A program made the translations under genes and the position numbers. From NCBI RefSeq assembly GCF_030538285.1, contig NZ_JAUNUG010000022.1, forward strand, positions 1 to 46,536: a stretch of DNA of 46,536 bases, written 5' to 3'. The stretch comes from Corynebacterium sp. GTDB taxonomy: Bacteria > Actinomycetota > Actinomycetes > Mycobacteriales > Mycobacteriaceae. The notes below the pieces were generated by a model that saw only the letters and a program-made list of their open reading frames with translations, made no database searches and had not been told where the DNA came from. The first letter of the stretch is position 1. Every line of letters starts with the position of its first letter. This document shows positions 2,093 to 45,028 of this stretch, piece after piece.

Positions 2093-3436
2093 TCAGGCCG
2101 AGGCGGCCGCCCGCTTCTCCGCCCCCGGGGTCTTCTTGGTGATGATCGGGACGACAATCACCGCCACGCCGATGAGCAGTGACGCCCAACCCAGGCCTGC
2201 GGTCAGCCCCGCCAGGACCGCAATCGGCGCGAGGATGGTCATGCCGATCTCGAAGGGAGCGAAGCCGACATAGGCCACGCCGTATTCGTTGAGGGTGCCG
2301 GATTTGAGCTTCGGGTCGACGATCTTGAGCAGCGCGATACCCGTGGCGACGGCCGCGGTCGCCCAGCCCCAGGAGAAGATTCCACGTTCCAGCCACTTCT
2401 CGCCGAAGAACTCCGGGGAGAGAACGAAGAAGATGAACAGGCAGTAGACCACACCAAGGACGAACAGGATGAGCAGCGGTACCCAGTAATCAGCGATGGC
2501 GGCAGGAACGATGGACGCGACACCGAAGGCGATGAGATAGTCAGTCGCCGCACCAGACATGGAGTTCACGGTGTTCTTGTCCAGGAAGTCCTTGCGCCCG
2601 ACTCCGGTGAGCAGCCCCCGGCCCAGCAGGCCGATGACGAAGGACATGGCGAACAGCGGGATGGACACGCTCGGGAAGAGGTCGTTGATGCCGCCGTTGA
2701 CCAGGTAGGCGACCAGCACGGTGAGCAGGACGAAGCCCAGGTGGAGGGCGAGCGGCTCGATAGACGAGGGGTTGGTCGTGGCGCGGCCGATCGACGGGCG
2801 CTCCTTGACATTATCGATGTAACCCGAACGCAGGTCCCAGGGCAGTTCACCCGGCATGGTGGAGGCACGTCCGGTGCGAATTCCCCAGTTGGCGAAGATA
2901 AGGCCACCGACGATGGCGGCCAGGGTACCCACCGTCGCGGCAGTGAAGCCGAGGGAGCTGGCGGCCACCGCGCCGGCCTCCTCCAGGGAGTGGCCGACGG
3001 CGGCGGCGGTACCGAAACCACCGACGAAGCCGACGGGCAGCATCATTCCGAACCAATCTTCAGTACCGAAGAGAGGCTTGAACAGGAACACGCCAAGCAG
3101 GATAAACAGCCCCCACTGCCCGAGAAACATACCGGTCGAGTACGACCACATGTTTCTGGCACCGGTACGCACCGAGGGAGTCAGATCCATTCCATAAGCC
3201 ATCGACGCGAAAACGAAGGCGATGAGGATGCCGGTGTAGGTACCGATCTGATCAGAGAAATTGATCCAGCCCAGCACCTGCGGGCCGAAAGCCAAGCCCA
3301 GCAGGCCCGCGGTGATCGACGCCGGCAGGAGCAGCTTCTGGAACAACCCCACCTTCCTACGCAGAAGGTTGCCGATGATCATGAGCAGGGAGATCCAGCC
3401 GACGTCGATAAGCAAGCTGTACGGGGTGTAATCCAT
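2093..3436 (-). CDS. gltS: sodium/glutamate symporter, GltS (ESS) family
   Basis: 447-residue polytopic membrane protein with about ten hydrophobic segments and the two GltS-type glycine-rich repeats (GFVGGFGTAAAVG near residue 130 and SGAATDYLIAFG in the second half). Family members import glutamate with Na+. Length is slightly above the usual ~400 because of a longer loop after residue 190 (ends near WDLRSGYIDN). Start ATG follows AGAGG very closely. It begins 37 bases after the stop of surface paralogue B, so readthrough from that gene is likely. A weak -10-like CATAGT lies just upstream. Substrate choice within the ESS family (glutamate or another dicarboxylate) cannot be fixed from sequence alone. 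Confidence 0.88.
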   Translation of the reverse strand: MDYTPYSLLIDVGWISLLMIIGNLLRRKVGLFQKLLLPASITAGLLGLAFGPQVLGWINFSDQIGTYTGILIAFVFASMAYGMDLTPSVRTGARNMWSYSTGMFLGQWGLFILLGVFLFKPLFGTEDWFGMMLPVGFVGGFGTAAAVGHSLEEAGAVAASSLGFTAATVGTLAAIVGGLIFANWGIRTGRASTMPGELPWDLRSGYIDNVKERPSIGRATTNPSSIEPLALHLGFVLLTVLVAYLVNGGINDLFPSVSIPLFAMSFVIGLLGRGLLTGVGRKDFLDKNTVNSMSGAATDYLIAFGVASIVPAAIADYWVPLLILFVLGVVYCLFIFFVLSPEFFGEKWLERGIFSWGWATAAVATGIALLKIVDPKLKSGTLNEYGVAYVGFAPFEIGMTILAPIAVLAGLTAGLGWASLLIGVAVIVVPIITKKTPGAEKRAAASA

Positions 3437-3473
3437 ACCTCTCAGACTATGCCAAGCTCGCTATTCGGTTGCC

Positions 3474-5309
3474 TTACACCCGGCGCAGGCGAACCACGAA
3501 CCCACCGACCACGATAAGCGCGACGGCCAACGCCAGGAGCACCGCGACATCCGCACCCGTGCGGGCGAGCTGACGCTCCTCAGCCGGCTGAACCTGGGGC
3601 TGAGCCTTCTCAGGTGCAGGCTCAGGCGCAATGGTCGTCTGCGCCGGGGCCTGCGGAGCCGGAGCCTGCTCCGGGTGCGCGGAGCTGTCCAGTTCCGGCG
3701 CACCCGGCAGCAGCGAGCTGGCCGCAATGCTGGAACCGATCAGTGCCGGAGGCAGCAGAAGTAGCGGCCACAGGGAGCTTCCGCTGGAGCCACCCGAAAC
3801 AGGGCAATCGAGGGGTTCACCGATGGCAAAATCGCTCTCGTTGACGCGGTAGAGAGTCTGCTGCTGCGGATCGAGAACGACCTCGTCGGTATTGATCTTG
3901 AGGTCGCCGGTGCTCTCGTCGAACACCAATGTCGCCCCCTCGAAAGCTTCCCAATCATTGCTCTCTCCTGCGGCTGACCCCACGAACACATACGTCTGCT
4001 CGCGCAGAGTAGTACCGATCGCCGAACGCACCTCACGAGCCTCCACCATGTAATTGCCCGAGCGCAGCGGCACGTCGCGGGTATAGAAGGTACCGTTAGC
4101 CTCCATGTCGATCAGCTGGTCCTGCGCGATGTGAGTCCACGAACCATCCTCAAGTTCCGCGTAGACGTTGACCTCAAAAACGGAACCGCTCACGATGCGA
4201 CCCGCGGCATCGGTACGCACCACGCTGGGGCCGAGACGGAAAGCGGTATCACCTCCGTCATAGCGCGAGTCAGTTTCCACCTCGTGGACCGGGCGATCCC
4301 CAGCACTACACACCGGAGTGGGGGTGGAACAATCGAAGGGAATAGCCAGCAGGGTGCGCCGATTCGGGTCGTCACCCTCAGATTCGACGGTGTCCCCGTA
4401 CTGGTACACGCCACCGCCGTAAACGGTGACGCCGTCCGCGTCCTGCTCCCAATACACGGGTTCCTCGACGAGCGAACACCCGGGAGGCGCCATTCGGTTC
4501 TCGAGGCGGAATTCGTGGGGCTGGTTGTACTCTAAATCGATGTTGTCAACGATATACGAACCGTCCACATCCATGTGGAGGCGATAGTCGTCCAAACTAA
4601 TGCAGGTCCAGTCGGGTTCATTACCGAAGCGTGTGCAGGACTCTCCGCCCCAGTAGGAACCAGCTATCGGCTGGCCAGTCGCAGAGTCGACGGCCACGAA
4701 AGTCGGGCCATGGTTCCGCCCGAGCCGAATCGGATCCTCCTCCGTTGCCCCGGTGGGGTCCGAGGCCTCACCGGGCTGGTAATTGATGACGAAGACATTG
4801 GGGGCAATTTCCTCGACAGGCCCCGCGGCCTCCCACCCATCGACAGTGGCGGTGATGGTCACCGGCTCTGTCAGCGGCAGGTAGCCAGGAGGAGGAGTCA
4901 CGCCAGTGAGGACAAACTCGTCAGCGGGCTCACCGTCGATGAGACCGTCTCCGCTGGATTGGAACTCGATCTCTCTCCAGAGCCAGGTTCCGTCGATGTT
5001 GCCGCGGTAGGGGCCAACAGACGCACCGTCCTCACCCGTGAGCAGGTCATTTCTTTGCACATTGTAGGTGGCACCGCTCAACGCCCGACCTGTCTTGGTA
5101 TCAACGGAAAACACGGTGGGGGTGATCCGGACTGCGACGGTCGCGTCCAGAACCTCTTCGTCTTCACCTTCTGACTGAGTGGGCCGAAGCAGCTGCGCTC
5201 CGTCGAGACTGCTCAATCCCAGGGGGTCAATCGTGGTGGCATGGGCTGGGGCGGCTAATCCTGCTATCAGGGCGACGGTGGCCGCCACAGCCGAGATTGT
5301 CCTTCTCAC
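3474..5309 (-). CDS. LARTG-anchored cell surface protein (paralogue B)
   Basis: 611 residues with the same plan as the protein at 232-1965. There is a signal peptide (MRRTISAVAATVALIAGLAA), then two to three beta-rich domains (VDTKTGRALSGATYNV, VDSATGQPIAGSYWGG, MDVDGSYIVDNIDLEY). A conserved CSAGDRPVHEV block, a hydrophobic LWPLLLLPPAL segment, a Pro/Ala/Gln spacer, LARTG, a membrane helix and RLRRV follow. It starts with GTG at 5309, supported by AAGGAG seven bases upstream. A good -10 (TATAGT, 5362-5357) lies about 50 bases upstream. The coding sequence is slightly less GC-rich than paralogue A. It probably heads a transcript that continues into gltS. Function unknown beyond wall anchoring. 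Confidence 0.86.
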   Translation of the reverse strand: MRRTISAVAATVALIAGLAAPAHATTIDPLGLSSLDGAQLLRPTQSEGEDEEVLDATVAVRITPTVFSVDTKTGRALSGATYNVQRNDLLTGEDGASVGPYRGNIDGTWLWREIEFQSSGDGLIDGEPADEFVLTGVTPPPGYLPLTEPVTITATVDGWEAAGPVEEIAPNVFVINYQPGEASDPTGATEEDPIRLGRNHGPTFVAVDSATGQPIAGSYWGGESCTRFGNEPDWTCISLDDYRLHMDVDGSYIVDNIDLEYNQPHEFRLENRMAPPGCSLVEEPVYWEQDADGVTVYGGGVYQYGDTVESEGDDPNRRTLLAIPFDCSTPTPVCSAGDRPVHEVETDSRYDGGDTAFRLGPSVVRTDAAGRIVSGSVFEVNVYAELEDGSWTHIAQDQLIDMEANGTFYTRDVPLRSGNYMVEAREVRSAIGTTLREQTYVFVGSAAGESNDWEAFEGATLVFDESTGDLKINTDEVVLDPQQQTLYRVNESDFAIGEPLDCPVSGGSSGSSLWPLLLLPPALIGSSIAASSLLPGAPELDSSAHPEQAPAPQAPAQTTIAPEPAPEKAQPQVQPAEERQLARTGADVAVLLALAVALIVVGGFVVRLRRV

Positions 5310-5356
5310 AGAAAACTCCTTCGTACAGGTCCGGACTTCCAGATTGGATTCAGGAA

Positions 5357-5467: not shown

Positions 5468-5481
5468 GCGGGCGCAGCAGC

Positions 5482-6663: not shown

Positions 6664-7818
6664 ATGCATTACCGCGCCATCATCATCGGCGCCGGCCAGG
6701 CGGGTCTGGCGGCCGCCCACGAACTCCACCGCCGCGGATTCTCCCTGGGACCCGAAGGCGATGTCCTCATCCTCGACGCCAACGATGGCCCCGGCGGCGC
6801 TTGGCGCCACCGCTGGGACTCCCTCACCCTCGGCACCGCCCACGGCATCGCCGACCTCCCCGGCCTGCCCATGGACCGCCCCGACCCGCACACCCCGGCC
6901 TCGCACCTCGTCGCCGACTACTACGGCACCTACGAAGACACCTTCGACATGCAGGTACTGCGCCCCGCCCCGGTCCGCCGTGTCACGCCCGGCTTCCCCC
7001 TCACCGTCACGCTTATCGACGACCGCGTCTTCACCGCCGACCTCGTCCTCAACGCCACCGGCACCTGGGACAACCCTTTCATCCCCTACGTCCCCGGCAT
7101 CGAGAATTTCCGCGGCCGCCAGCTGCACACGAAGGACTACGTGCGGAAAGAGGACTTCGCCGGCCAGCGCACGCTGGTCGTCGGCGGCGGGCTGTCCGCC
7201 GTGCAGTTCCTCCTCGAACTCGCCCCCGTCACCGACACGATCTGGGCCACCCACCGCCCACCGAACTTCACCAGGCGGGAGTTCGACGCCGGCTGGGGCC
7301 TGGCCGTCGAGGATGCCGTCCGGGAGCGCACCTTCGCAGGGCAGCGCCCCGCCTCCGTGGTGCGCACCACCGGCATCCCACAGATCCCCGCCTACCTCGA
7401 GGGGGTCGCCGACGGCACCTTAATCTCCCGGGGCATGTTCGATCGCATCACAGAAAACGGCGTCGTGTTCGGACCGCCGAAAAGTGAAGCGGCGGCGGGT
7501 TACGGGCCGTCGAAAAGCAATGGACTCCAGGTCCCGGAATCCTGGGACCCGCTGCCGGTGGGCACGGAGATAGACGTCGACGTCATCTTCTGGAACACCG
7601 GCTTCCGCCCCGCGCTGCGCCACCTCGCACCCCTGAAACTGCGCGGCGCGGCAGGCGGGATCCGGATGCTCGACGAAGTCACCCCCGCAGCCGACAATCG
7701 CGTCCTCCTCGTCGGCTACGGCTCCACCGCCTCCACCGTCGGCGCCACCCGGGCGGGCCGTCTCGCCGGACGCCGTGCCGCCCACCTCCTGAAACAGAAA
7801 GTAGACTCAGCCTCGTGA
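6664..7818 (+). CDS. FAD-dependent NAD(P)-binding oxidoreductase (flavin-containing monooxygenase type)
   Basis: 384 residues. The N-terminal FAD-binding motif is GAGQAGLAAAHELHRRG (from residue 9) and the second nucleotide-binding motif is VVGGGLSAVQFLLEL (around residue 178). A conserved GTWDNPFIPYVPG segment, typical of single-component flavin monooxygenases, lies between them. The reaction is probably NADPH-dependent oxygenation of a small organic substrate, which cannot be named. The ATG at 6664 is chosen over an upstream in-frame ATG at 6574 because the promoter and operator lie between them. Its stop overlaps the next gene by four bases (GTGA). RosR control would link it to peroxide stress. 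Confidence 0.85.
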   Translation: MHYRAIIIGAGQAGLAAAHELHRRGFSLGPEGDVLILDANDGPGGAWRHRWDSLTLGTAHGIADLPGLPMDRPDPHTPASHLVADYYGTYEDTFDMQVLRPAPVRRVTPGFPLTVTLIDDRVFTADLVLNATGTWDNPFIPYVPGIENFRGRQLHTKDYVRKEDFAGQRTLVVGGGLSAVQFLLELAPVTDTIWATHRPPNFTRREFDAGWGLAVEDAVRERTFAGQRPASVVRTTGIPQIPAYLEGVADGTLISRGMFDRITENGVVFGPPKSEAAAGYGPSKSNGLQVPESWDPLPVGTEIDVDVIFWNTGFRPALRHLAPLKLRGAAGGIRMLDEVTPAADNRVLLVGYGSTASTVGATRAGRLAGRRAAHLLKQKVDSAS

Positions 7819-8985: not shown

Positions 8986-9909
8986 CTAGGCGTGCTCGTT
9001 GACGAAGTCGCGGGCAATGGCCGGGGGCTCGGCCTTCTCTTCGCCGATGTTCCGCAGGTTGAGATCGACGAGCACCTCGGTGCTCAGCTCCGCCGAGATA
9101 CCGTTAATAGCGTTGATCGCCTCCCGGGGGATGGCATCGGCGCGCATGAGCGGCAGGACGTTCTGGGGGAGGATGAGCCGCTCGGGATCCTCGAGGGTGA
9201 CAAGGTCGACCTCGTTGCCGGCGGCGTCGAGAAGCGGGGAGGTGGTGTAGATATCGGCGACCTCAGCCGCTCCCTCCACCACGGCGGCGATGGTGAGCGG
9301 TCCACCGCCATCAGAAATCGGGACCACGGAGACCTTGTCTGCGTCCACGCCGTAGACCGAGGCCAGGCCAGGCGGACCATAGGGGCGCTCGGCGAACTCC
9401 GGGTTAGCGGCGATGCGTACCTGCTCGAGTTTATCCAGGTCACCGAGAGTTTCCAGCCCGTACTCCTCGGCGAGCTCCCGGGTGACACGGTAGGAGTCCT
9501 TAGACTCACCCTCGGCGATGTCTCCGGCGACAAGGCCCTCCGGGAGAACTTCCTGGAGAGCGGCGAGGGCTTGCGAGGTCGCAGTCCCCGCCTCGAGCTC
9601 CGCCCCGTAGTACTGGGCGAGGTTGCCGGAGTACTCGGGAACGAGGTCGATGCTGCCCTCTTCGAGGGCCTGGAGGTAGACCTCGCGGGAGCCGATGCCG
9701 GAGTTGACCTCGACGTCGAATCCGGCGTCCTCGAGGGCGGCGGCCCAGATCTGCCCGATGATCTCCGATTCGGGGAAGTTGGCGGTGCCGATGGTGATGG
9801 TTTCGGTATCTGCCTCCGGCGTGGTCGCCAAGGGGTCATCCGCGGAGGAGCAGGAGCTGAGCGCGAGGGCGGCGACAGCGAACAGGGTGGTGGTGAGTCT
9901 CAGTTTCAT
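8986..9909 (-). CDS. ABC importer substrate-binding lipoprotein, OpuCC/OsmF/EgtU type
   Basis: 307 residues. Lipoprotein signal with lipobox ALSSC (Cys20). The mature part starts ITIGTANFPESEIIGQIWAAALE and contains SGIGSREVYLQALEEGSIDLVPEYSGNLAQYY, hallmarks of the quaternary-amine binding family. Ligand is probably a trimethylammonium compound (glycine betaine, choline, carnitine) or ergothioneine; sequence alone does not decide. The ATG at 9909 overlaps the stop of the permease gene (ATGA). It is the last gene of a four-gene operon. A much longer open frame to 10938 is only the antiphase reading of the two permease genes. Confidence 0.88.
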   Translation of the reverse strand: MKLRLTTTLFAVAALALSSCSSADDPLATTPEADTETITIGTANFPESEIIGQIWAAALEDAGFDVEVNSGIGSREVYLQALEEGSIDLVPEYSGNLAQYYGAELEAGTATSQALAALQEVLPEGLVAGDIAEGESKDSYRVTRELAEEYGLETLGDLDKLEQVRIAANPEFAERPYGPPGLASVYGVDADKVSVVPISDGGGPLTIAAVVEGAAEVADIYTTSPLLDAAGNEVDLVTLEDPERLILPQNVLPLMRADAIPREAINAINGISAELSTEVLVDLNLRNIGEEKAEPPAIARDFVNEHA

Positions 9910-10571: not shown

Positions 10572-11212
10572 CCCACCCTCCGGGCCCACGGCATGAGGAG
10601 GCGGCCTGCGAGGACGAGTGCGGCGTCGATAAGCATGGCGAGGACGACGGTGCCGACGAGGCCGACGATGATCTGCGTCGGGAACGAACGCTGGAAGCCT
10701 TCAGTAAACAGCGTGCCCAGCGAGGCGACACCGATGAGCGCGCCGACGGAGACGAGCGAGATCGTCGACGCCGAGACAACCCGGATGCCAGCCAGTAGCG
10801 CTGGTCCAGCCAGGGGCAGCTCAACGCTGAGCACGCGTTTCCACGCCGGATAGCCTGTGGCGATCGCTGCCTGCCGCACATCACCGGGCACGGTGCCGAA
10901 GGCGTCCGCCGTGGCGCGGACCTGCAGCGCCAGGCCATAAAGTGTCATGGCGACGATGACGTTGAGCGGAGAAAGGATCGACGTTCCCAGAAAAAGCGGC
11001 ATGACCACGAATAACGCCAGCGAAGGAATGACATACAGCAGACCGGTGAGCACCACGATCACCTCGCGCGCCCAGCAGTGCCGGTGCGCGAACCAGCCGA
11101 TCGGCAAGGCGATGACAAACGACGCCACAATCGCCGGCCACGACAGCGAAAAGTGCGCCCACGCGAGATCCCCGATCCGCCCGGCATTGTCGACGACCCA
11201 ATTCCACCTCAT
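10568..11212 (-). CDS. ABC importer permease (proximal, OpuC-type)
   Basis: 214 residues with the permease loop around ATGYPAWKRVLSVELPLAGPALLAGI near residue 125. Start ATG at 11212 overlaps the ATPase stop (ATGA), which decides it against the longer in-frame start at 11260. The C-terminal LLMPWARRVG runs directly into the next start. It carries one of the GCTTATCGAC motifs (10625-10634, coding Leu-Ile-Asp). Confidence 0.87.
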   Translation of the reverse strand: MRWNWVVDNAGRIGDLAWAHFSLSWPAIVASFVIALPIGWFAHRHCWAREVIVVLTGLLYVIPSLALFVVMPLFLGTSILSPLNVIVAMTLYGLALQVRATADAFGTVPGDVRQAAIATGYPAWKRVLSVELPLAGPALLAGIRVVSASTISLVSVGALIGVASLGTLFTEGFQRSFPTQIIVGLVGTVVLAMLIDAALVLAGRLLMPWARRVG

Positions 11213-12015
11213 TCCAACACCCCGCGTACCCGGCCACTGCTGTCCACGACGACCTGGCACCCGTCCCGCTTCTCGACGCGCAACCGCCGTCCCTTTGCCC
11301 CCGTGAACTCGCGGACCTGCTCGTTGGCGGGGCTAGTAAGAAACTCCTCCGGCGCCCCGACCTGTTCGATCCGGGCCTGCTCGCCGAGGAGGACGACGGT
11401 GTCGCCGAGGAGGAAGGCCTCGTCGATGTCGTGGGTGACCATGAGGATGGTTTTCGCCATGCGTTCCTGCAGGGAGAGGATCTCCTCCTGCAGGCCGCGG
11501 CGCACGACGGGGTCGACGGCGCCGAAGGGCTCATCCATGAGGAGAATGTCCGGGTCGGCGACCAGGCCGCGGGCCACGCCGACGCGCTGGGCCTGCCCGC
11601 CAGACAATTCCGCCGGGTAACGCCCGCCCAGCGCCGGGTCGAGGCCGACGAGCCGAAGCATCTCGGCGGCGCGCTCCCGGGCCTCCTTCCTGCGCGTGCC
11701 GTTCAACTGGGCGATGGCAGCCACGTTGTCCAGCACCGTGCGGTGCGGCAGAAGCCCGGAGTGCTGCATGACGTAACCGATGGAACGCCGCAGCTGCACC
11801 GGATCAACCTGGCTGACGTCTTTTCCGCGTACGCGGACGGTGCCGCTGTCGGCAGGCACCATGCGGTTGACCATCCGCAGCAGAGTCGTCTTCCCGCATC
11901 CGGAAGGCCCGACGAAGACGGTGGTGGAACCGGATTCGACGTGGTGGGTAAAGTCGGCGACCGCCGGGTGGGAGCTGCCCGGGTAGGTGCGGGAGACGCG
12001 GTCGAACTCGATCAT
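11209..12015 (-). CDS. ABC importer ATPase, ProV/OpuCA-like
   Basis: 268 residues. Walker A GPSGCGKTT (about 36-44), signature LSGGQAQRVGVARG, Walker B ILLMDEPFGAVDP and a switch His (THDIDEAFLLGD) are intact. It lacks the tandem CBS domains that follow the ATPase in classical OpuA proteins, so osmotic gating through CBS is absent. Start ATG at 12015, preceded by AAGGTG. It is the first gene of the operon ATPase-permease-permease-binding protein. A minus-strand TAGAAT (12059-12054) is a good -10, giving a leader of about 33 bases. It is divergent from the flavohemoprotein gene. Confidence 0.9.
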   Translation of the reverse strand: MIEFDRVSRTYPGSSHPAVADFTHHVESGSTTVFVGPSGCGKTTLLRMVNRMVPADSGTVRVRGKDVSQVDPVQLRRSIGYVMQHSGLLPHRTVLDNVAAIAQLNGTRRKEARERAAEMLRLVGLDPALGGRYPAELSGGQAQRVGVARGLVADPDILLMDEPFGAVDPVVRRGLQEEILSLQERMAKTILMVTHDIDEAFLLGDTVVLLGEQARIEQVGAPEEFLTSPANEQVREFTGAKGRRLRVEKRDGCQVVVDSSGRVRGVLE

Positions 12016-13290: not shown

Positions 13291-14076
13291 TTTCCGGGCT
13301 TTGTCGACTTCTTCCATGTCGAGATCGTAGGTGAGGATTTCTGGTTCGTAGCCGGCTTCTGCTTCTCGACGCCCCGTCGGCCCCACCACGCACGAATGCC
13401 CGATGCCGGTCGGTCCGCTGGGTTCACCGCCGTCTTCGGCACCGCCGGGGCGGGCCTGGCCGGCGGCGACGATCCACGCGGTGGAGTCCAGAGCGCGTGC
13501 GGCGGTGAGGATGCGCCACTGTTCGAGTTTTCCGGGGCCGTCCATCCAGCTGGTGGGCACGACGATGACCTGCGCGCCCTGGCGCGCCAGGTCACGGAAC
13601 TGCTCGGGGAAGCGGATGTCGTAGCAGGTGGCCACACCGACGGTGACGCCGTCAACGTCAAAGGTCACCAGGTCCTCACCGGGTTTGACGGTGTCGGATT
13701 CCTGATAGGAGTAGGCGTCGAAGGTGTTGATCTTGTCGTAGCCCTCGTGGTGCTCCGGGCCGGTGATCAGCGCAGTGTTGTACACGCGGTTGATCTTCTT
13801 GCCCTCGCGCTCGACAGTGTCGGCGGGCCGGAACATGCCGGCGACGACGGTGACGCCGAGCTCGCGTGCGGCGTCGCGAAGCCCGGTGGCGAACTCCCCG
13901 TCGAGCTCCTGGGCGTGTTTATCGAGGCGCCCAGATTCGAAAGCCTGGCTCGTGGCCTCGGGGAATACGATCAGGCGCGCGCCTTGCTCGGCGGCCTCGC
14001 GCATCTTCTGCTTGGCAAGTGCCAAATTGTTCAGGATATCCGGTCCGCTGGTTATCTGCACGGCTGCGATCTTCAT
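13273..14076 (-). CDS. carbon-nitrogen hydrolase (nitrilase superfamily, Nit-like amidase)
   Basis: 267 residues. The catalytic triad is visible as Glu40 (VFPEAT), Lys115 (GYDKINTFD) and Cys151 (VGVATCYDIRFPEQF). The DIRFPE and INTFDAYSYQESD segments are typical of the Nit1/Nit2 branch (omega-amidase or deaminated glutathione amidase). This branch fits better than nitrilase or carbamoylase, but the exact substrate is inferred only by family. Start ATG at 14076 (MKIAAVQ). Two inverted perfect DnaA boxes lie 14 bases upstream. Confidence 0.85.
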   Translation of the reverse strand: MKIAAVQITSGPDILNNLALAKQKMREAAEQGARLIVFPEATSQAFESGRLDKHAQELDGEFATGLRDAARELGVTVVAGMFRPADTVEREGKKINRVYNTALITGPEHHEGYDKINTFDAYSYQESDTVKPGEDLVTFDVDGVTVGVATCYDIRFPEQFRDLARQGAQVIVVPTSWMDGPGKLEQWRILTAARALDSTAWIVAAGQARPGGAEDGGEPSGPTGIGHSCVVGPTGRREAEAGYEPEILTYDLDMEEVDKARKSLPVL

Positions 14077-14407: not shown

Positions 14408-15567
14408 TGCTTCTCGACGTCACCTCCCTCCGCCGCCTCTCCCACCAGCTCACCAACCATGCCGCCTGGCTCAGCGAGCAGCATTCCTGGCTGGCCCGTT
14501 CCTTCGACGCCCTGGAGGGGACGGGGTTTTCCGGGCCCGCAGCCACCGCGGCCGTGGGCCGACTGCATCGGCTGGCGACCCCCCTTTCCCGGCCCCCGGA
14601 GCAGATGCTGCGGGTCGCGCACGTGCTGTCGGTGACCGCCGCCCTGCAGGAGGAATTGGACGCGGCGGCTTCCCGGGCTGCGCTGCTGGCCAGACAACAC
14701 CCGGCTGCGGCGGGTGCGCTGGCCCTGCTCATGCGCGACTTAAGGGGCTTGGGGGATGTGCTGGATGCCACCTGCGCTCGCAGCATTGACTTGTTGTGCA
14801 CTGAGATCCCGGTGGACACACCCCGCCGCTGGTCCGCCGACCCGGACCTAGGGCTAGCTGCTCTCGACCAACGCAACCGCCTGGAATCCGGCTTAGATTT
14901 ACCCCCTGACGTGCAACTGCTGGAGGTTGACGGGCACCGCCTCGTCGCCGCCGTCGGTGATCTCGAGCACGCCGAATCGGTGACCACCCTCGTGCTGGGC
15001 ACCGGTTCCTCCGCAGCCGAGCGCCTGCCCGTGCACTTGGACCGCGCCCGCACCATTTCGGCCGCCACCGGTGGGGCGGCAGTGGTGTGGTTGGGTTATC
15101 CGGCCCCGCCCGGCGTGGCCCACGCGCTGGCCCAGGAACCGGCCCGGGCGGCGGGCGGCGAGCTGCAGGCCTTCCAGAAAGAACTCACCCGCCGTTTCCC
15201 CCGCCAGCGCCGTATCGTGCTCGGCTACTCCTACGGTGGGATGGTTGCCGCACAGGCCGCGGCGCGGGGGGAGGGCATGTACGCGGATCGGCTGGTGTTC
15301 GTGGGGAGCCCGGGGGTGGGCGTCGATAAGGCGGCGCAGCTGACCTTGCTCGGCGATGATCCGCAGATCCACGCCATGACGAACCCCTCCGACCCGGTGA
15401 AACTGGTCGGAGGGGTGCATGGCCCGGACCCCGCGGCCCCGGGGTTCGGGGCGCGAGTGCTGTCCGGGGACCCGGAGGGCACCCACAGCAGCTACTGGGA
15501 GGATCCCCTACTGCTGGGTGTCCTGCAGGGCTGGGCTCAGAAGAAGCCGAGCGCGTTGTCGGAGTAG
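14407..15567 (+). CDS. alpha/beta hydrolase, DUF1023 type, with N-terminal helical domain
   Basis: 386 residues. Residues 1-140 are Ala/Leu-rich helices, a T7S-substrate-like coiled region. The rest is an alpha/beta hydrolase with nucleophile Ser275 in GYSYGG, an acid probably in [11 protein letters not shown] and His in [17 protein letters not shown] near the active site is characteristic of DUF1023. No signal peptide, so it would be cytosolic or exported by a non-Sec route. Substrate unknown. Co-translated with the preceding 79-residue protein. The 3' end overlaps the opposing aldehyde dehydrogenase gene by 31 bases. Confidence 0.78.
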
Positions 15568-19641: not shown

Positions 19642-21497
<1,856 letters not shown>

Positions 21498-34307: not shown

Positions 34308-34778
34308 ATGCCCGCATCCACCCAGCGGCCCCTGCGCATCGCAGTCATCAGCGACGGAGCTGCCGGCATGTGCCTCGCCGAAAGCCTGCTCGCCGCGCCC
34401 GTTTATGTCGACCTCATCACCGCGCGCACGGCCCCCGCCGGACTCTTGCACTCCACACCGGTCGGCGACCAGGCCCCGCGCCTGCGCCTGATTGGCAACG
34501 TGCGCGTCGGCGTCGACGTGCACATCGACGAGCTCCACGAGCTTTACGACGCCGTCGTCACCCCCGACATGGCCCCCGCCGCGGCGCTCGCCTCCGCCGA
34601 GATCACCGCCGCCGTGTTCCCCGAGCGCCCGCAGGACACCCCGCCGCGCCTCTTAGAGCTTCTCGACGCCCGCGGCGTCGCCGTCACCTCCTGGCAGGGC
34701 TGGACCGCAGGTGCCACCGAAAGCACCGACTGGGCCGCAGTCGAGCTGTCCTCCCGCGGCGTCCCGGTGTGCATGTGA
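34308..34778 (+). CDS. miniature ferredoxin-NADP reductase-like protein of unknown function
   Basis: 156 residues. The N-terminus aligns with the FprA-type reductase at 42244-43644 (LRIAVISDGAAGM against LRVAVIGAGPAGI; VDLITARTAPAGLL against IDLIERLPAPFGLI; HIDELHELYDAVV against TVEELQEHYDAIV). The C-terminus also aligns (LLELLDARGVAVTSWQGW against LQLLDARGIPVTTWEGW). The whole middle, with the NADP-binding domain, is missing, and the FAD motif GAGPAG is reduced to SDGAAG, so catalysis is unlikely. Ribosome site AAAGGAAGAG. The stop overlaps the SUMT start (GTGA), implying tight co-production under a McbR box. A regulatory or scaffolding role in siroheme/sulfite metabolism is only inference. 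Confidence 0.8.
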   Translation: MPASTQRPLRIAVISDGAAGMCLAESLLAAPVYVDLITARTAPAGLLHSTPVGDQAPRLRLIGNVRVGVDVHIDELHELYDAVVTPDMAPAAALASAEITAAVFPERPQDTPPRLLELLDARGVAVTSWQGWTAGATESTDWAAVELSSRGVPVCM

Positions 34779-35503
34779 GCACCGGCCACGTCACCCTCGT
34801 CGGCGGTGGCCCCGGCGCCTGGGACCTCATCACCCTGCGCGGCATGCGTGCCCTGCAGGACGCTGACGTCATCCTCACCGACCACCTCGGCCCCACCGAC
34901 GAGCTCGGACAACTCTGCGACACCGCAGACAAGACCGTCATCGACGTCTCTAAACTCCCCTACGGCCGCCAGGTCGCGCAGGAGGAGACCAACCGTCTCC
35001 TCATCGAGCACGCCCAGGCCGGCCGCCATGTCGTGCGCCTTAAAGGCGGCGACCCCTATGTCTTCGGCCGTGGCCACGAGGAAGTGGAGGCCTGCCGGGA
35101 ACACGCGATCCCCTGCGCCGTCATCCCCGGGGTGACCAGCGCGATCTCCGTGCCCGCCGCGGTGGGCATCCCCGTCACCCAGCGGGGCGTGGTCCACTCC
35201 TTCACGGTTGTCTCCGGCCACCTGCCCCCGGGACATCCCAATTCGCTCGTCGACTGGCCGTCCCTGGCCCGGGCGGGAGGCACGATATCTGTGATCATGG
35301 GTGTCAAGCATGTCGCCGCGATCACGCAGGCGCTTCTCGACGCCGGGCTGCCCCCGCTGACCCCAGCCGCCGTCATCCAGGAGGGCACCACCGATCAGCA
35401 GCGCAGCGTCCGCTGCACCCTGGGCACCCTGGCCCGGACGATGGAAGAGCATGGCATCTCCTCCCCGGCGGTTTACGTCATCGGCGACGTCGCCGGGCTG
35501 TGA
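34775..35503 (+). CDS. cobA: uroporphyrinogen-III C-methyltransferase (SUMT)
   Basis: 242 residues. N-terminal SAM-binding motif HVTLVGGGPGAWDLITLRGMRAL, then PYGRQVAQEETNRLL, VRLKGGDPYVFGRGHEE and PGVTSAISVPAAVGIPVTQRG: the complete set of SUMT motifs. Makes precorrin-2, the precursor of siroheme needed by CysI. No fused oxidase/chelatase or uroporphyrinogen synthase domain. Start GTG at 34775 within GTGA of the preceding gene. Convergent with the exporter gene, whose stop is one base away. The chelatase that completes siroheme is encoded at 36423-37058. Confidence 0.93.
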   Translation: MSTGHVTLVGGGPGAWDLITLRGMRALQDADVILTDHLGPTDELGQLCDTADKTVIDVSKLPYGRQVAQEETNRLLIEHAQAGRHVVRLKGGDPYVFGRGHEEVEACREHAIPCAVIPGVTSAISVPAAVGIPVTQRGVVHSFTVVSGHLPPGHPNSLVDWPSLARAGGTISVIMGVKHVAAITQALLDAGLPPLTPAAVIQEGTTDQQRSVRCTLGTLARTMEEHGISSPAVYVIGDVAGL

Positions 35504-36422: not shown

Positions 36423-37058
36423 CTAGGTGAGGGCAGCGCGGTAGCGCGCGGCGACGATGTCGGCCAGCGCGGCGCCGAGCGGCGGGTCGGCGCTGACGCC
36501 GGGGGTGAGCAAGCGGTCGAGGAGCAGGGCCTCGGTGACGAACAGCGGGATGAGGTGGGTCTCCCCGTAGGTCACGTCACCCGTCGCCCGGCGCACCCCC
36601 ACCTGCCGTCCGAGGCGGGCGGCCACACGCTGGGCCAACGCCCCTACTGCCTCTTCCGCCGTCGGATCGGAGGATCCGACGTGCGCGAGGGTGAGGCTGC
36701 GACCCGGCGCGGGGCGGGTGTGGGCCGCCAGGACCTCTGCGATGTCCTCGCCGGTGCCCAGGCCGCGCGCCGGAAGTAGGTCGAGCCCGCTTAACTCCTG
36801 TGCCGCCTGCAGGGCAGCGGGAACATCGTGACGCGCATGGAAGCCATCCGTGAACAGCAGCGGCACGACCACGGCGCGACGGTGGCCTGCCGCGGCGAGT
36901 GAGGCGGCGGCGTCGATAAGCGAGGGGGAATTGAATTCCAGGTGGGCGGCGCGGGCGGTGACGCCCAGCCTCTCCCCCGCGACCGCGGTGAGTCGGTCGA
37001 TGCCGGCGGCGGCGCGCGGGTGGCGGGAGCCGTGGGAGAGGGTGAGCAGGGCGGTCAT
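36423..37058 (-). CDS. cysY: sirohydrochlorin chelatase (CbiX/SirB-like)
   Basis: 211 residues, class II chelatase with two half-domains. LTLSHGSRHPRAAAGIDRL supplies the metal/tetrapyrrole His, with FTDGFHARHDVP in the middle and LAHVGSSDP opening the second half. Inserts Fe2+ into sirohydrochlorin for CysI. The start overlaps the cysN stop by one base (TGATG). Carries the motif copy at 36912-36921 in a Leu-Ile-Asp context. Confidence 0.88.
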   Translation of the reverse strand: MTALLTLSHGSRHPRAAAGIDRLTAVAGERLGVTARAAHLEFNSPSLIDAAASLAAAGHRRAVVVPLLFTDGFHARHDVPAALQAAQELSGLDLLPARGLGTGEDIAEVLAAHTRPAPGRSLTLAHVGSSDPTAEEAVGALAQRVAARLGRQVGVRRATGDVTYGETHLIPLFVTEALLLDRLLTPGVSADPPLGAALADIVAARYRAALT

Positions 37059-39240: not shown

Positions 39241-40001
39241 GAGTGAAGTCCGCATTCTGTCTTGTTCTGACCGGCCCAACGGCCGGCGCGGGGATCCTCC
39301 CCGTCGGCGACGGGGAGTGTGCAGGTGGCGCACCCGATGGAGGGGTAGCCCTGCCGGGTGAGGGGGTGGATGATGAGGTCGCGTTCGTCGATGAACCGTT
39401 CGGTGTCCTCCATCGACCAGGTGACCAGCGGGGAGATTTTCAGGCGGCCGGTCGCGTCGAGGCTCAGTGCCGGGGCGTTGGCGCGCGTCGGGCCGTCGGC
39501 GCGCCGCAGCCCGGTGACCCACCCCGCGTAGGGGGTGAGGTTCACGGCCAGGGGTTCGACCTTGCGCATGCGACAGCACGCGGCCGGATTGTTCCGGTAG
39601 AGGTTCGCGCCGTAGGTCGCGTCCTGCTCGCCGCGGGTGAGCGTCGGCCGGGCGGTGACCAGGGTCTGCGGGTAGCGGGCGTCGACGGCGGCCGCGACGT
39701 CGAGGGTCTCCGGGAAGTGGTAGCCGGTGTCCAGGAAGAGCAGGTCAGCCTCGGGCAGGTGCCACGCGGCGAGTTCAGCGAGGACGGTGTTCTCCATGGA
39801 CAGGGTCACCGCGATCGCGCCGGGCGCGTGCTCCCGGGCCCAGGCGAGGATGGTGGCGGCGGGTGCGTCGTACAGCTCCGCGGCATGCTTATCGACGAGC
39901 CGCGCATTCTCCTCCCGCACTTCCTCCGGCAGGTCACCGGTGGTGGTGGGGCCTGGTGGGCTGAGCTGCGGGTCGCGGGCGTCGAGGTTGAGCAGGTTCA
40001 T
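39237..40001 (-). CDS. cysH: adenylylsulfate (APS) reductase
   Basis: 254 residues. The 4Fe-4S cysteines CC (AACCRMRK) and CxxC (IGCATCTLP) mark it as an APS rather than PAPS reductase. The catalytic Cys lies in KTECGLH at the C-terminus. LDTGYHFPETL is the substrate loop. Reduces APS to sulfite with thioredoxin. Overlaps cysX upstream and cysD downstream by four bases each (ATGA). Confidence 0.96.
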   Translation of the reverse strand: MNLLNLDARDPQLSPPGPTTTGDLPEEVREENARLVDKHAAELYDAPAATILAWAREHAPGAIAVTLSMENTVLAELAAWHLPEADLLFLDTGYHFPETLDVAAAVDARYPQTLVTARPTLTRGEQDATYGANLYRNNPAACCRMRKVEPLAVNLTPYAGWVTGLRRADGPTRANAPALSLDATGRLKISPLVTWSMEDTERFIDERDLIIHPLTRQGYPSIGCATCTLPVADGEDPRAGRWAGQNKTECGLHS

Positions 40002-40246: not shown

Positions 40247-41916
40247 GTCAGGTCCTCCTCGGCGGCGCGCTGCACCCATTCCTGGAAGGTCTCACCTGCG
40301 GTGCGCTGCTCCTTGAAGTGGGTGACCACGCGGGTGACGTAGTCGCCGACCTCGGTGGCCAGGACCTTGTGTCCGCGCAGCTTGCGGCCGAAGTTGGCGC
40401 CGATGTTCATGGAGCCGCCGAGGTGGACCTGGAAACCTTCGACGCGGTTGCCCTCGGCGTCAGTGACGGTCTGCCCCTTGAAGCCGATGTCCGCGACCTG
40501 GGTGCGGGCGCAGGAGTTGGGGCAGCCGTTGAGGGCGATGCGGACGGGGACATCGATGTCGCCGATGCGTTCCTCGAGTTCGTCGACGAGCTCGACGGCA
40601 CGGGACTTGGTGGTGGCGTGGGCCAGTTTGCAGAACTCCAGGCCGGTGCACGAGATGATGTTGCGGCGCCATTCGCTGGGCTTCGAGTAGAGGCCGGTCT
40701 CGTCGAGGGCAGCGGCCAGGTCGGCTAAGTCGCTGCGTTCGACGTCGAGGAAGAGCAGCTCCTTTTCCGCGGTGGTGCGGATGCGGGTGATGCCGAAGCG
40801 CTCGGCGACATCGGCGATGGCGATGAGCTGCTCACCTGTCGTGTGACCGACGGTGGGTTTAACGCCGAGATAGAACTTGCCGTCCTTCTGCGGGTGGATG
40901 CCGATGTGGTCGCGGTAACCGGGGTTGATGGGCTGGTGCGGGCCGTCGATAAGCTGGTGCCCGAGGTACTCGGTTTCCAGCACCTCCCGGAACTTCTCCA
41001 CTCCCCATTCCGCCACGAGGAACTTCAGCCGCGCCCGGTTGCGCAGGCGTCGATAACCGTAGTCGCGGAAGATGCGGGCCACACCGGCCCACACGTCCGG
41101 GACCTCATCGAGCGGGATCCACGCACCGAGGGATTGCGCGAGCATCGGGTTGGTGGACAGGCCACCGCCGACGAAGCACTCGAAACCGGGTCCGTGCTCT
41201 GGGTGGACGGAACCGATGAAGGCGACGTCCTGGATTTCGTGGGTGACGTCCTGGCGCGAGTGCCCGGAGATGGCGGACTTGAACTTGCGCGGCAGGTTGT
41301 GGAATTCGGGGTTGGGCAGGTGCTCGCGCTGAATGCGCTCGATGGCCGGGGTGGCGTCGATGATCTCCTCCGCGGCAACGCCCGCCACCGGGGAGCCGAG
41401 GATGATGCGCGGCACGTCGCCGCAGCCCAGCAGGGGGCTCAGTCCCACGGTGTCTAGCTTTTCCCAGATCGCCGGAATGTCCTCGATCCGCAGCCAGTGC
41501 AGCTGGATGTTCTGGCGGTCGGTGAAGTCGGCGGTGGAGCGGGCGTAGTCGCGGGAGATCTCACCGACGGCGCGGAGACGCTCGGGGGTGACCAGGCCGC
41601 CGTCGAAACGCACGCGCATCATGAAGTACTTGTCCTGGAGCTCGGCGTCGGGCACCTGGCCGGTCAGTTCCCCGCCGAGGTCCTGTCGGCGCTGGGTGTA
41701 CAGGCCGAGCCATTTGAAGCGGGGGGCGATGTCGTCGGCGGGGATCGAGTCGAATCCCTGCTTCGAGTAGATGTCGATCACGCGGTGGTAAACGTCGAGG
41801 ACCTCACCGTCCTGTTTGACCTCCTCGACGTGGTTGAGGGGCGCGGTGCCGTCAATTTTCCACTGGCCTTCCGGCTTGCGGACCCGCTGGCGGCGCGTGG
41901 TGGTGGCCGTTGTCAT
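40243..41916 (-). CDS. cysI: ferredoxin-type sulfite reductase
   Basis: 557 residues. Siroheme/4Fe-4S motifs CTGLEFCKLA (C-x5-C) and NGCPNSCAR (C-x3-C) near residues 420-470. The N-terminal repeat includes FMMRVRFDGGLVTPERL and QNIQLHWLRIEDIP. Reduces sulfite to sulfide with electrons from reduced ferredoxin/CysX. First gene of the minus-strand operon cysI-X-H-D-N-chelatase-exporter, in which every junction overlaps except the last. A McbR-like box lies 14-29 bases upstream. It faces fpr2 across a 327-base control region. Confidence 0.96.
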   Translation of the reverse strand: MTTATTTRRQRVRKPEGQWKIDGTAPLNHVEEVKQDGEVLDVYHRVIDIYSKQGFDSIPADDIAPRFKWLGLYTQRRQDLGGELTGQVPDAELQDKYFMMRVRFDGGLVTPERLRAVGEISRDYARSTADFTDRQNIQLHWLRIEDIPAIWEKLDTVGLSPLLGCGDVPRIILGSPVAGVAAEEIIDATPAIERIQREHLPNPEFHNLPRKFKSAISGHSRQDVTHEIQDVAFIGSVHPEHGPGFECFVGGGLSTNPMLAQSLGAWIPLDEVPDVWAGVARIFRDYGYRRLRNRARLKFLVAEWGVEKFREVLETEYLGHQLIDGPHQPINPGYRDHIGIHPQKDGKFYLGVKPTVGHTTGEQLIAIADVAERFGITRIRTTAEKELLFLDVERSDLADLAAALDETGLYSKPSEWRRNIISCTGLEFCKLAHATTKSRAVELVDELEERIGDIDVPVRIALNGCPNSCARTQVADIGFKGQTVTDAEGNRVEGFQVHLGGSMNIGANFGRKLRGHKVLATEVGDYVTRVVTHFKEQRTAGETFQEWVQRAAEEDLT

Positions 41917-41929
41917 GAGATGCTCCCTA

Positions 41930-42203: not shown

Positions 42204-42205
42204 CA

Positions 42206-42221: not shown

Positions 42222-42243
42222 GGAACCAACCCGAAAGGTCACC

Positions 42244-43644
42244 ATGAGCCATCCCACCCCTGAGACCGCCCTCCGCGTCGCCGTCATCGGCGCCGGCCCC
42301 GCCGGCATCTACGCCTCCGATCTGCTGTCGAAGAACGCCACATCGATCGGTCGCGAGATCCACATCGACCTCATCGAAAGGCTGCCCGCCCCCTTCGGCC
42401 TCATCCGCTACGGTGTCGCCCCTGATCATCCGCGCATCAAGGGCATCGTCACCTCGCTGCACAAGGTCCTCGACCGCCCGGAGATCCGCTTCCTGGGCAA
42501 CATCGAGATCGGCAAGGACGTCACGGTCGAGGAGCTGCAGGAGCATTACGACGCCATCGTGTTCGCCACCGGCGCCGACCAGGACCGGGACCTGGACATC
42601 CCGGGTGCCGACGCCGAAGGCTCCTACGGCGCGGCCGACTTCGTGGGCTTCTACGACGGCAACCCGGACTTCCCCCGCACATGGGACCTCTCTGCACAGT
42701 CCGTGGCCGTCATCGGCGTGGGCAACGTCGGCCTCGACGTCGCCCGTGTGCTGGCGAAGACCGCCGAGGAACTCAACGTCACGGAGATCCCGGAGAACGT
42801 CTACGAGACGCTGCGCACCAACCAGGCCACCGAGGTCCACGTCTTCGGACGCCGGGGCCCCGCCCAGGCAAAGTTCACCCCGCAGGAGCTCAAGGAGCTC
42901 GACCACTCCCCCACCGTCAACGTCGTCGTCGATCCGGAGGACATCGACTATGACGAGGCCAGCATCCAGGCACGCAGCAGTTCCAAGTCCCAGGATCTGG
43001 TCTGCCAGATCCTCGAGGGCTACGCCATCCGTGAGCCGAAACCCGCCCCGCATACCCTCCAAATCCATCTTTTCGAATCGCCGGTGGAGATCCTCACCCA
43101 CGAAGGCCGCGTCGTCGGCCTGCGTACCGAACGCACGGAACTCGACGGCTCCGGCCACGTCCGCGGCACTGGCACCTTCACTGACTGGCCGGTCCAGGCC
43201 ATCTACCGCGCCGTCGGCTACCGCTCCGAGCCGGTCGCCGGTGTGCCGTTCAACCACGCCGAGCACGTCATCCCCAATGACGGCGGCCGCGTTCTCCACA
43301 ACGCTGGCACCGCGGTTTCCGGCCTGTATACCACCGGTTGGGTCAAGCGCGGCCCGATCGGCCTGATCGGCAACACCAAGTCCGACGCCAAGGAGACCAC
43401 CGACCTTCTGCTGGCCGATGCCGCCGCCGGTCACCTCACCGCACCCACCGAGTCGGCCGACGCCATTCTCCAGCTTCTCGACGCCCGCGGCATCCCCGTC
43501 ACCACCTGGGAGGGCTGGCTCCGACTGGACGCCGAGGAGCGCCGCCTGGGCGAAGAATCCGGCATCGAAGGCCGCGAACGCCGCAAGATCGTCGAATGGG
43601 AGGACATGGTCTCGCACGCCCACCTGGCACCGGCCCGCGTGTAG
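42244..43644 (+). CDS. fpr2: ferredoxin/adrenodoxin-type NADP+ reductase
   Basis: 466 residues. FAD motif AVIGAGPAGIYASDLL, substrate segment PFGLIRYGVAPDHPRIKGIV and NADP motif AVIGVGNVGLDVARVL near 160, then RRGPAQAKFT. FAD C-terminal motif GLYTTGWVKRGPIGLIGNTK. The C-terminal 60 residues (LLDARGIPVTTWEGW onward) are also present in the mini-protein at 34308-34778. Transfers electrons from NADPH to ferredoxin/CysX for sulfite reduction. Ribosome site AAAGG. Confidence 0.94.
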   Translation: MSHPTPETALRVAVIGAGPAGIYASDLLSKNATSIGREIHIDLIERLPAPFGLIRYGVAPDHPRIKGIVTSLHKVLDRPEIRFLGNIEIGKDVTVEELQEHYDAIVFATGADQDRDLDIPGADAEGSYGAADFVGFYDGNPDFPRTWDLSAQSVAVIGVGNVGLDVARVLAKTAEELNVTEIPENVYETLRTNQATEVHVFGRRGPAQAKFTPQELKELDHSPTVNVVVDPEDIDYDEASIQARSSSKSQDLVCQILEGYAIREPKPAPHTLQIHLFESPVEILTHEGRVVGLRTERTELDGSGHVRGTGTFTDWPVQAIYRAVGYRSEPVAGVPFNHAEHVIPNDGGRVLHNAGTAVSGLYTTGWVKRGPIGLIGNTKSDAKETTDLLLADAAAGHLTAPTESADAILQLLDARGIPVTTWEGWLRLDAEERRLGEESGIEGRERRKIVEWEDMVSHAHLAPARV

Positions 43645-43950: not shown

Positions 43951-43959
43951 TTTCCCGGA

Positions 43960-43995
43960 GGCGGGCAGACCCACAGTCTGCCCGCCTTCTTTATT
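43960..43995 (+). terminator. intrinsic terminator of the small membrane peptide gene
   Basis: Perfect 11-pair stem GGCGGGCAGAC / GTCTGCCCGCC with loop CCACA, followed by TTCTTTATT. Confidence 0.9.
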
Positions 43996-44008
43996 CCTCA
44001 CCCCAAGA

Positions 44009-44052
44009 CACCTGTCCCCGGCCCCGCTCATGAAAGCGGCCGGGGATAGGTG
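44009..44052. repeat. second strong hairpin after the small peptide gene
   Basis: CACCTGTCCCCGGCC.. pairs with ..GGCCGGGGATAGGTG over 18 positions with one G-T wobble and a two-base bulge (loop around CATGA). It lies 14 bases after the preceding terminator. It could be a back-up terminator or part of a short RNA ending at 44060. Confidence 0.6.
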
Positions 44053-44123
44053 CTTTCAAGGGGAAGTGGGAGACTCCCGCCAACCTCCCGAGGAGCGCGC
44101 CCGCAGTGAGGTAACCTCGCGGG

Positions 44124-44552
44124 ATGAGATTGTGGTCGCTGCATCCCCGCTATCTGGATCAGAAGGGTTTGGTGGCGTGCTGGCGGGAGACACTGCTCGC
44201 TCAGAAGGTTCTCACCGGAAACACTCGAGGTTATCGGAATCATCCGCAGCTGACCCGTTTCCGTGCTCACGAGGATCCGCTCCTCGCCGTCAGTGTCTAC
44301 CTGCAGGGTCTCCACGAGGATTCCGTGGCTCGTGGGTACAACTTCGATGCGGGCAAGATTCTGCGCCGAGGCAAGGTGTCGCTTATCGACGTCACCTACG
44401 GGCAACTCGCCCATGAGCTGGCCCATCTGCGGGACAAGCTGGTGCAGCGAGCTCCCGAGCGGGTGGTCGATCTACCATCACCCGAAGAAATAGAACCGCA
44501 CCCGCTGTTCCGGATCATCCCCGGCCCAGTTGAGGACTGGGAACGGGTGTAG
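44124..44552 (+). CDS. pyrimidine dimer DNA glycosylase family protein
   Basis: 142 residues matching the Pyr_excise family: MRLWSLHPRYLDQKGLVACW, LLAQKVLTGNTRGYRNHPQLTRF and the LAHELAHLRDKL helix. T4 endonuclease V-like enzymes cut at UV-induced pyrimidine dimers. Activity in bacterial members is assumed rather than proven. The ATG lies six bases after a -10-like TAACCT inside the palindrome GAGGTAACCTC, and no ribosome site is clear, so leaderless expression is possible. Contains motif copy 44381-44390 (Leu-Ile-Asp). Convergent with the next gene, stops seven bases apart. Confidence 0.85.
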   Translation: MRLWSLHPRYLDQKGLVACWRETLLAQKVLTGNTRGYRNHPQLTRFRAHEDPLLAVSVYLQGLHEDSVARGYNFDAGKILRRGKVSLIDVTYGQLAHELAHLRDKLVQRAPERVVDLPSPEEIEPHPLFRIIPGPVEDWERV

Positions 44553-44558
44553 ATCCCA

Positions 44559-44789
44559 TTACTTCGGCATCTTCGTCAAATGCCACGCCCCGCACTCGCA
44601 CCTGTACACCCGCAAAGGCAGCTGTGATGACCCCCGCTTCCGCCACGCCAACCCTAATGCGCGATCCGCTTCATCCCTATTGGTGTACTTGCGCTTGAGC
44701 GGAGTCGGACACTCCGCATATTCGGGTAGACGGGCCTTCTCCTCCTGCCGGAGTTTCGCCAGTCGCTTCTGCCGCCGAGTGCGAGTCAA
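44559..44789 (-). CDS. small basic protein with zinc-ribbon-like Cys cluster
   Basis: 76 residues from a TTG start at 44789 (AAGGGAAAAC just upstream). Very basic N-terminus (TRTRRQKRLAKLRQ), Cys in AECPTPLKRKY and CECGAWHLT near the C-terminus, resembling a degenerate zinc ribbon. Possibly nucleic-acid binding. Family not recognised with confidence, though the CxCGxWHLT ending is typical of small actinobacterial proteins. Confidence 0.6.
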   Translation of the reverse strand: MTRTRRQKRLAKLRQEEKARLPEYAECPTPLKRKYTNRDEADRALGLAWRKRGSSQLPLRVYRCECGAWHLTKMPK

Positions 44790-45028
44790 AGTTTTCCCTT
44801 AACAGTCCTTGGTATGTACGCGGGAGGATACGACCGTTAGCGAACATGCTGCGGCCACTGCCCCGACAGTATGTTCTATACTCATCACCCACTCGATGCT
44901 CCTGCCACCGCTAACACAATTCTTTCACCCCTCCCCCACCCCACCGATCCACCGTGTGAGCTGCGGGCTAGACGGTGAGCACCGCGGCGTCGATAAGCGG
45001 CGAAGCAGGACGTGTCAGCCCCTCCCTT
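44790..45028. other. intergenic region before the Fe-S oxidoreductase
   Basis: No gene seen. Contains GAACAT/ATGTTC inverted half-sites about 25 bases apart near 44843-44878, a TATACT hexamer nearby, a pyrimidine-rich stretch, and the window motif copy at 44989-44998. Confidence 0.4.
44989..44998 (-). repeat. GCTTATCGAC motif (intergenic copy; full list given here)
   Basis: Exact 10-base copies start at 3404, 7011, 10625, 22132, 25392, 27147, 28988, 32401, 36912, 39887, 40945, 44381 and 44989. Copies at 7011, 25392, 28988, 32401, 39887 and 44381 read GCTTATCGAC on the plus strand; the rest do so on the minus strand. All 13 are followed by G. One-mismatch copies start at 15322, 17190, 41049 and 41965. 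This copy lies between genes, about 30 bases upstream of a -10 hexamer. Confidence 0.85.

Follow-up and report, generated by a model that had tools for sequence, protein, structure and literature searches.

Why is one short word, GCTTATCGACG, scattered through a stretch of 46,536 nucleotides from Corynebacterium sp. (contig NZ_JAUNUG010000022.1, positions 1 to 46,536; hereafter the window), and what is it for? A first-pass annotation had noticed the word, argued for selection on DNA and offered as possible roles an uptake-signal-like sequence, a nucleoid or segregation protein site, and a methylation or recombination signal. Among these the uptake-signal-like role gives the best fit, and we consider it probable that the word in its general form, HGCTTATCGACG with a C-rich downstream tract (core GCTTNNCGACG, two central bases tolerant), serves Corynebacterium as a DNA uptake sequence, for which we propose a mechanism based on Tad and Com proteins.

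A recount of the window returned the same 13 exact copies, six on the plus and seven on the minus strand, at the sites previously reported, although some positions had been off by one (the first lies at 3403-3413, the last at 44988-44998). One-mismatch relatives had been undercounted, with 19 found where four had been claimed. Because 13 of these 19 deviate only at base 5 (GCTTCTCGACG ten times, GCTTGTCGACG twice and GCTTTTCGACG once), the word is better written GCTTNTCGACG, which occurs 26 times in the window with A, C, G or T at base 5 in 13, 10, 2 and 1 copies, respectively. Altogether 32 sequences lie within one mismatch of GCTTATCGACG, compared with 0.68 expected and a maximum of 4 in 100 dinucleotide shuffles. 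A pyrimidine and a C had been described as usually following the word, and position +12 is indeed C in 23 of the 26 copies. Across the organism's own genome (2.95 Mb) the word is present 1,533 times (772 forward, 761 reverse; about 1 per 1.9 kb), against 19 copies of the reversed word used as a control, and the claim of a dispersed motif was correct but understated. This is the highest count among the 242 Corynebacterium genomes searched.

Such a word might be a by-product of codon usage or of a preference for the tripeptide Leu-Ile-Asp, and 136 of the 284 sites in samples from three genomes do lie in the sense Leu-x-Asp frame. However, the other 148 lie elsewhere: 90 are within genes but in another frame or on the other strand, and 58 are outside called genes, the latter figure to be read with the caveat that the gene caller was simple and misses some genes. 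The enrichment is thus not limited to the Leu-x-Asp frame, a limitation that the first-pass annotation had named as refuting. Its other refuting result, a count near the codon-aware expectation, was not obtained either. Shuffling synonymous codons within genes produced about one tenth of the observed count or less: in the window and one 20-kb stretch there are 32 coding copies against 2.1 (maximum 5 in 200 shuffles), and for G009, a second genome sampled over 400 kb, there are 121 against 10.6 (maximum 19). Leu-Ile-Asp is encoded as CTT-ATC-GAC in 12 of 17 instances in the first of these samples, where CTT accounts for 105 of 1,942 leucine codons, and in 46 of 60 in the second (661 of 9,770). 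Where the protein was unchanged between 20 pairs of related loci, the ten fixed bases were kept at 48 of 57 sites, whereas frame-matched windows gave an expectation of 18.7. The word is therefore both abundant and subject to constraint or drive at the level of DNA rather than protein, as had been proposed, and a codon-bias or tripeptide cause, rejected on the synonymous shuffles and the frame distribution, is left with practically no probability.

The word is a trait of the genus. At least 100 copies were counted in 169 of the 242 Corynebacterium genomes, 40-99 in 12 and fewer in 61, with the reversed word at 36 copies or below in every one, and GCTTATCGACG occurs 0-7 times in 85 genomes from 30 other genera of the family. 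Loci with the main word include those of C. glaucum, C. urinipleomorphum, C. tuscaniense, C. oculi, C. mastitidis, C. gallinarum and C. silvaticum, among others, and loci around C. tuberculostearicum, a human-associated species as is C. macginleyi, have the form with both central bases free (GCTTNNCGACG).

Word discovery in four motif-poor genomes (G001, G012, G043 and G232; 139 kb sampled from each) indicated that reading these genomes as simple losses is partly wrong, as several have another word. The G001 sample yielded GCTTGCCGATG, which has in common with the main word the frame GCTT..CGA.G and the following C; position +12 was C in 92% of 72 GCTTNNCGATG sites. Whole-genome counts of GCTTGCCGATG were made in 80 genomes (all 61 in the lowest class for the main word, 11 of the 12 in the 40-99 class, five genomes with 111-154 copies of it, and three controls) and reached 133-478 in 14 of them, where the reversed control was found 0-2 times. 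Thirteen of these 14 have fewer than 100 copies of the main word, the other (G024) having 117. Five more motif-poor genomes (G028, G032, G128, G157 and G186) were low, at 29-37 copies with reversed controls of 0-6. Relatives of C. macginleyi contain 3-4 copies of GCTTGCCGATG per 21 kb and the C. macginleyi locus itself one, while the whole genome G102, which we take to be C. macginleyi, has 172. The G012 sample yielded ATGACGCCGCG, with 353 copies, the runner-up among 54 genomes having 22, and the samples of G043 and G232 only weakly enriched words. In its coding portion the G012 sample (loci L012, L118 and L136-L140) also has CCTCCTACGA and adjacent 10-mers 13-14 times, where about one copy would be expected. 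Nine further genomes are left with 54-96 copies of the main word. A tree built from four proteins at 40 loci puts motif-poor genomes in several places, one of its tips being misplaced, in our opinion because of missing data. The variant words are apparently species dialects.

Within the word, bases 5 and 6 are the tolerant positions (base 6 in the G009 sample is T 147, A 37, C 17 and G 9 times), the base directly 5' is seldom G, and a C-rich tract extends about 15 nt downstream, stronger than on the upstream side and visible too at the 58 sites outside called genes. This anatomy bears on the proposal that a DNA methyltransferase or repair system maintains the word, as has been suggested for HIP1 (highly iterated palindrome 1) of cyanobacteria, which is likewise a short word highly repeated across a bacterial group, is an example of a very abundant word with no known role in uptake, and is linked to methyltransferases (PMC4390886). 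HIP1, however, is a palindrome, whereas the Corynebacterium word is not and has a long, asymmetric, C-rich flank; of the functional alternatives we judge this the least probable, slightly below a segregation site.

The word is scarce in one mobile island and in three phages. The sampled core of genome G065, which we take to be C. glutamicum ATCC 13032, has 78 copies in 272 kb (the non-N part of G065:C1:600001-620000, L225, where 8,000 of 20,000 bases are N, being counted within it). Six stretches of an island at 1.785-1.955 Mb, presumably prophage CGP3, hold 0 copies in 120 kb against 34.4 expected; the island region codes for a conjugative coupling protein. Three phages of C. glutamicum, BFK20, phi674 and phi673, were sampled in stretches and together contain 1 copy in 86 kb against 24.7 expected. 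A core rich in the word, phages and an island poor in it, and variants between species are also what Chi sites display, and they would suit a recombination signal of the Chi type, recognised by a helicase-nuclease that processes DNA ends (AdnAB or another) so as to protect self DNA and promote repair. Known Chi words, however, measure 5-8 nt, less than the Corynebacterium word together with its C-rich tract, and Chi of Escherichia coli is strongly biased to the leading strand, at about 75%. When orientation was set against origin and terminus, as the first-pass annotation had advised, samples of two genomes gave a leading:lagging ratio of 124:101 (76:71 in G009, 48:30 in G065), that is 55% leading, which is no significant polarity (p = 0.14 vs 50%) and is far from the Chi value (p = 1e-10 vs 75%).

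The same ratio speaks against a chromosome-organisation or segregation site, bound by a nucleoid-associated protein or an FtsK/SMC-type loader, since a guide resembling KOPS (FtsK orienting polar sequences) would be polar. A density of about 1 per 2-3 kb and a near-Poisson spread (variance/mean 1.01 in G009, counted in 20 stretches of 20 kb at even intervals) would suit such a site, whereas the long core word, the variant words in related species and the range limited to one genus would not. Regular spacing was rejected, the gaps being close to random (coefficient of variation 0.93 vs 0.96). Chi and segregation signals are thus disfavoured mainly because polarity is missing; the former we regard as unlikely and the latter as more unlikely still.

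Close inverted pairs, unexpected for Chi, are in excess. Among 854 sites in 143 loci, with pairs defined as neighbours whose starts lie less than 45 nt apart, a plus copy was followed by a minus copy in 8 of 221 cases and the reverse order was found in 4 of 221, compared with 0 of 284 for same-strand neighbours; the pairs at L037 and L040 seem to be one site in two related species. At L031:15605-15660 two copies, plus then minus, form a perfect hairpin whose stem extends outwards and inwards past the word and is followed by TTTTT, apparently a terminator built from the word. A plus-then-minus pair at L145 forms a hairpin followed by TCTTTCT and is a possible terminator.

Returning to the DNA uptake sequence, two proteobacterial systems invite comparison. 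The uptake signal sequences (USS) of Pasteurellaceae consist of a core and a longer degenerate flank, a likeness to the Corynebacterium word, and the hosts of the DNA uptake sequences (DUS) of Neisseriaceae, unlike Corynebacterium, have no envelope with mycolic acids. The Corynebacterium word, GCTT..CGAYG, differs from DUS, as do the phylum (Actinomycetota) and the pilus genes (Tad/Flp rather than type IVa); word, flank, phylum and pilus type all differ from USS. DUS, whose receptor is ComP, are nevertheless similar in being short words in very many copies, with lineage-following dialects, genic and intergenic sites and inverted pairs (PMC3630211), though their pairs are linked to terminators (PMC3630211) and few terminator-like pairs occur here. 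USS similarly favour particular reading frames yet have no general orientation bias along the genome (PMC2346458), and their pairs are often terminator stems in H. influenzae (PMC5217627), which are rare in the Corynebacterium sample; in this terminator-pair habit the match is only weak. In abundance, dialects, scarcity in the sampled foreign DNA, and frame preference without genome polarity, the word matches described uptake sequences, and its hosts have genes for a candidate uptake apparatus.

Of the candidate machinery, ComEC and TadA are near-universal where searched. A ComEC match was found in 241 of the 242 genomes, the sole exception being a draft (G186; 31 copies of the main word), where a draft gap is possible. 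A TadA-type ATPase was above the cut-off in 43 of 44 genomes, DprA and prepilin peptidase were each found in 10 of 10, and ComEA matched at 31 of 40 ComEC loci by our gene calls. The ComEC match of G124, presumably C. otitidis, has one internal TGA (G124:C1:543012-543797; region also in L025/L220), the only one with a stop noticed among about 150 matches listed; the motif there is at background (36 copies). In the organism's own genome ComEA, with a helix-hairpin-helix in Pfam, directly precedes ComEC, and a pilus cluster comprises a ParA-like gene, which matched weakly below the cut-off and resembles TadZ in its position, together with TadA, two T2SSF proteins, a DUF4244 protein interpreted as the Flp pilin, a TadE/G-like gene, and a small TadE-like gene that had no Pfam match. 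The Flp-like pilin, and likewise a TadG-like protein carrying two spaced cysteines, was seen again both in genomes rich in the motif and in genomes poor in it. Presence or absence of ComEC or TadA is not supported as the cause of motif-poverty. In the actinobacterium Micrococcus luteus, comEC and tad genes are required for transformation, which is Flp/Tad-dependent and involves the same candidate genes (Tad cluster, ComEA, ComEC, DprA), and the combination of tad with comEA/comEC is described as common among actinobacteria (PMC4322843); that paper mentions neither an uptake sequence nor an uptake signal by these terms.

We infer that DNA is taken up, word-bearing DNA preferentially so, and also which protein would read the word. 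The receptor at the surface, probably either ComEA or a pilin-like component of the Tad/Flp pilus, would prefer word-bearing DNA, which Tad pilus, ComEA and ComEC would import and DprA/RecA recombine. The word would accumulate wherever a gene tolerates it, because word-bearing copies are taken up more often, and drift of the receptor between lineages would give rise to dialects. Uptake bias together with mutation has been argued to suffice for such accumulation (PMC1939737).

Several observations weigh against this interpretation. In fifty of the 242 genomes the main word stays below 40 copies and neither variant word is numerous, and yet 49 of the 50 keep ComEC and all 14 of those tested have TadA; these genomes may have unrecognised dialects, a lost preference or another use for the pilus. 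ATGACGCCGCG has only part of the main word in common, and naming it a dialect is for that reason a guess. The ComEC match is in two pieces in three motif-rich genomes, G014, G091 and G229 (weaker E-values of 5e-25, 5e-17 and 2e-26), with 209, 256 and 826 copies of the word, where recent breaks or frameshifts are possible. When Com and Tad proteins of G106 (main word) were compared with those of G001 and G102 (GCTTGCCGATG), none stood out as receptor, ComEA and the TadG-like protein being among the less conserved but unrelated neighbours likewise. Close inverted pairs are few, with only L031 clearly and L145 possibly terminator-like. The G065 island has 47-50% guanine plus cytosine against mostly 52-56% in the core, which may explain its depletion in part. 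Our literature searches turned up no account of a naturally transformable Corynebacterium. Nor did they find a published report of the word, although most subscription journals and bioRxiv preprints were outside their reach and an earlier report is possible.

The copies of GCTTNTCGACG in the window are listed in Table 1. Nine exact copies had been placed in the Leu-Ile-Asp frame, and all nine are there, eight in called genes and the one at 44381 in open reading frame (ORF) 44124-44552, which has a pyrimidine-dimer glycosylase domain and was missed by our gene caller. As previously stated, the last copy (44988) lies between genes by all appearances, and it is the only one in the window that does. 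A PAPS reductase domain bears out the name cysH given to the gene at 39887, while the gene called M20 had no Pfam match at 1e-8.

Table 1. Copies of the word in the window, with strand and position relative to genes.
Word	Coordinates	Strand	Context
GCTTATCGACG	3403..3413	-	sense, L-I-D frame
GCTTATCGACG	7011..7021	+	sense, oxidoreductase gene
GCTTTTCGACG	7508..7518	-	antisense, same oxidoreductase gene as 7011..7021
GCTTCTCGACG	9225..9235	-	sense, OpuAC-type gene
GCTTATCGACG	10624..10634	-	sense, transport permease gene
GCTTCTCGACG	11268..11278	+	antisense
GCTTCTCGACG	13361..13371	+	antisense
GCTTCTCGACG	14409..14419	+	sense, predicted start of hydrolase gene
GCTTCTCGACG	19805..19815	+	antisense inside HSP70 gene
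GCTTATCGACG	22131..22141	-	sense
GCTTATCGACG	25392..25402	+	sense; gene named putA in first-pass annotation only
GCTTGTCGACG	26355..26365	+	sense
GCTTCTCGACG	26910..26920	-	antisense
GCTTATCGACG	27146..27156	-	antisense
GCTTGTCGACG	28210..28220	+	sense
GCTTATCGACG	28988..28998	+	sense
GCTTATCGACG	32401..32411	+	antisense; first of inverted pair with 32445-32455
GCTTCTCGACG	32445..32455	-	sense; second of inverted pair with 32401-32411
GCTTCTCGACG	34658..34668	+	sense
GCTTCTCGACG	35332..35342	+	sense
GCTTATCGACG	36911..36921	-	sense
GCTTATCGACG	39887..39897	+	antisense inside PAPS reductase gene
GCTTATCGACG	40944..40954	-	sense
GCTTCTCGACG	43473..43483	+	sense, oxidoreductase gene
GCTTATCGACG	44381..44391	+	sense, L-I-D frame of ORF 44124-44552 (Pyr_excise)
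GCTTATCGACG	44988..44998	-	intergenic

Two loci elsewhere contain other repeats, about 20 copies of GCGGAGAATT/ATACCTCCGC in 20 kb (L017) and 12-16 copies of TACCCGGACG/TGACCTACCC in 20 kb (L032), each probably a clustered regularly interspaced short palindromic repeat (CRISPR) or other array. A study of spaced motifs that covered three Corynebacterium genomes reports CRISPR patterns there (PMC5217627).

A 2025 paper states that such words are known only from Neisseriaceae and Pasteurellaceae. With somewhat less confidence than in the uptake sequence itself, we lean towards a broader reading in which Corynebacterium, including C. glutamicum, would be naturally transformable and the word would represent a third independent self-DNA recognition, the first outside these two proteobacterial families, read by a Tad-type pilus in mycolic-acid-layered bacteria. 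The dialects would then act as partial genetic barriers between neighbouring species, such as C. tuberculostearicum with GCTTNNCGACG and C. macginleyi with GCTTGCCGATG. If this is true, a third case in another phylum would mean that self-recognition in transformation evolves repeatedly, and natural competence would be predicted for a genus of industrial and medical importance. Recently acquired DNA would be recognisable by its lack of the word, and distributions of uptake sequences have already been used to find mobile elements (PMC7371117). Since a single genus offers 242 genomes and more than one word, a test of receptor-word coevolution becomes possible, and dialects would help to define the partners in gene exchange among co-living corynebacteria.

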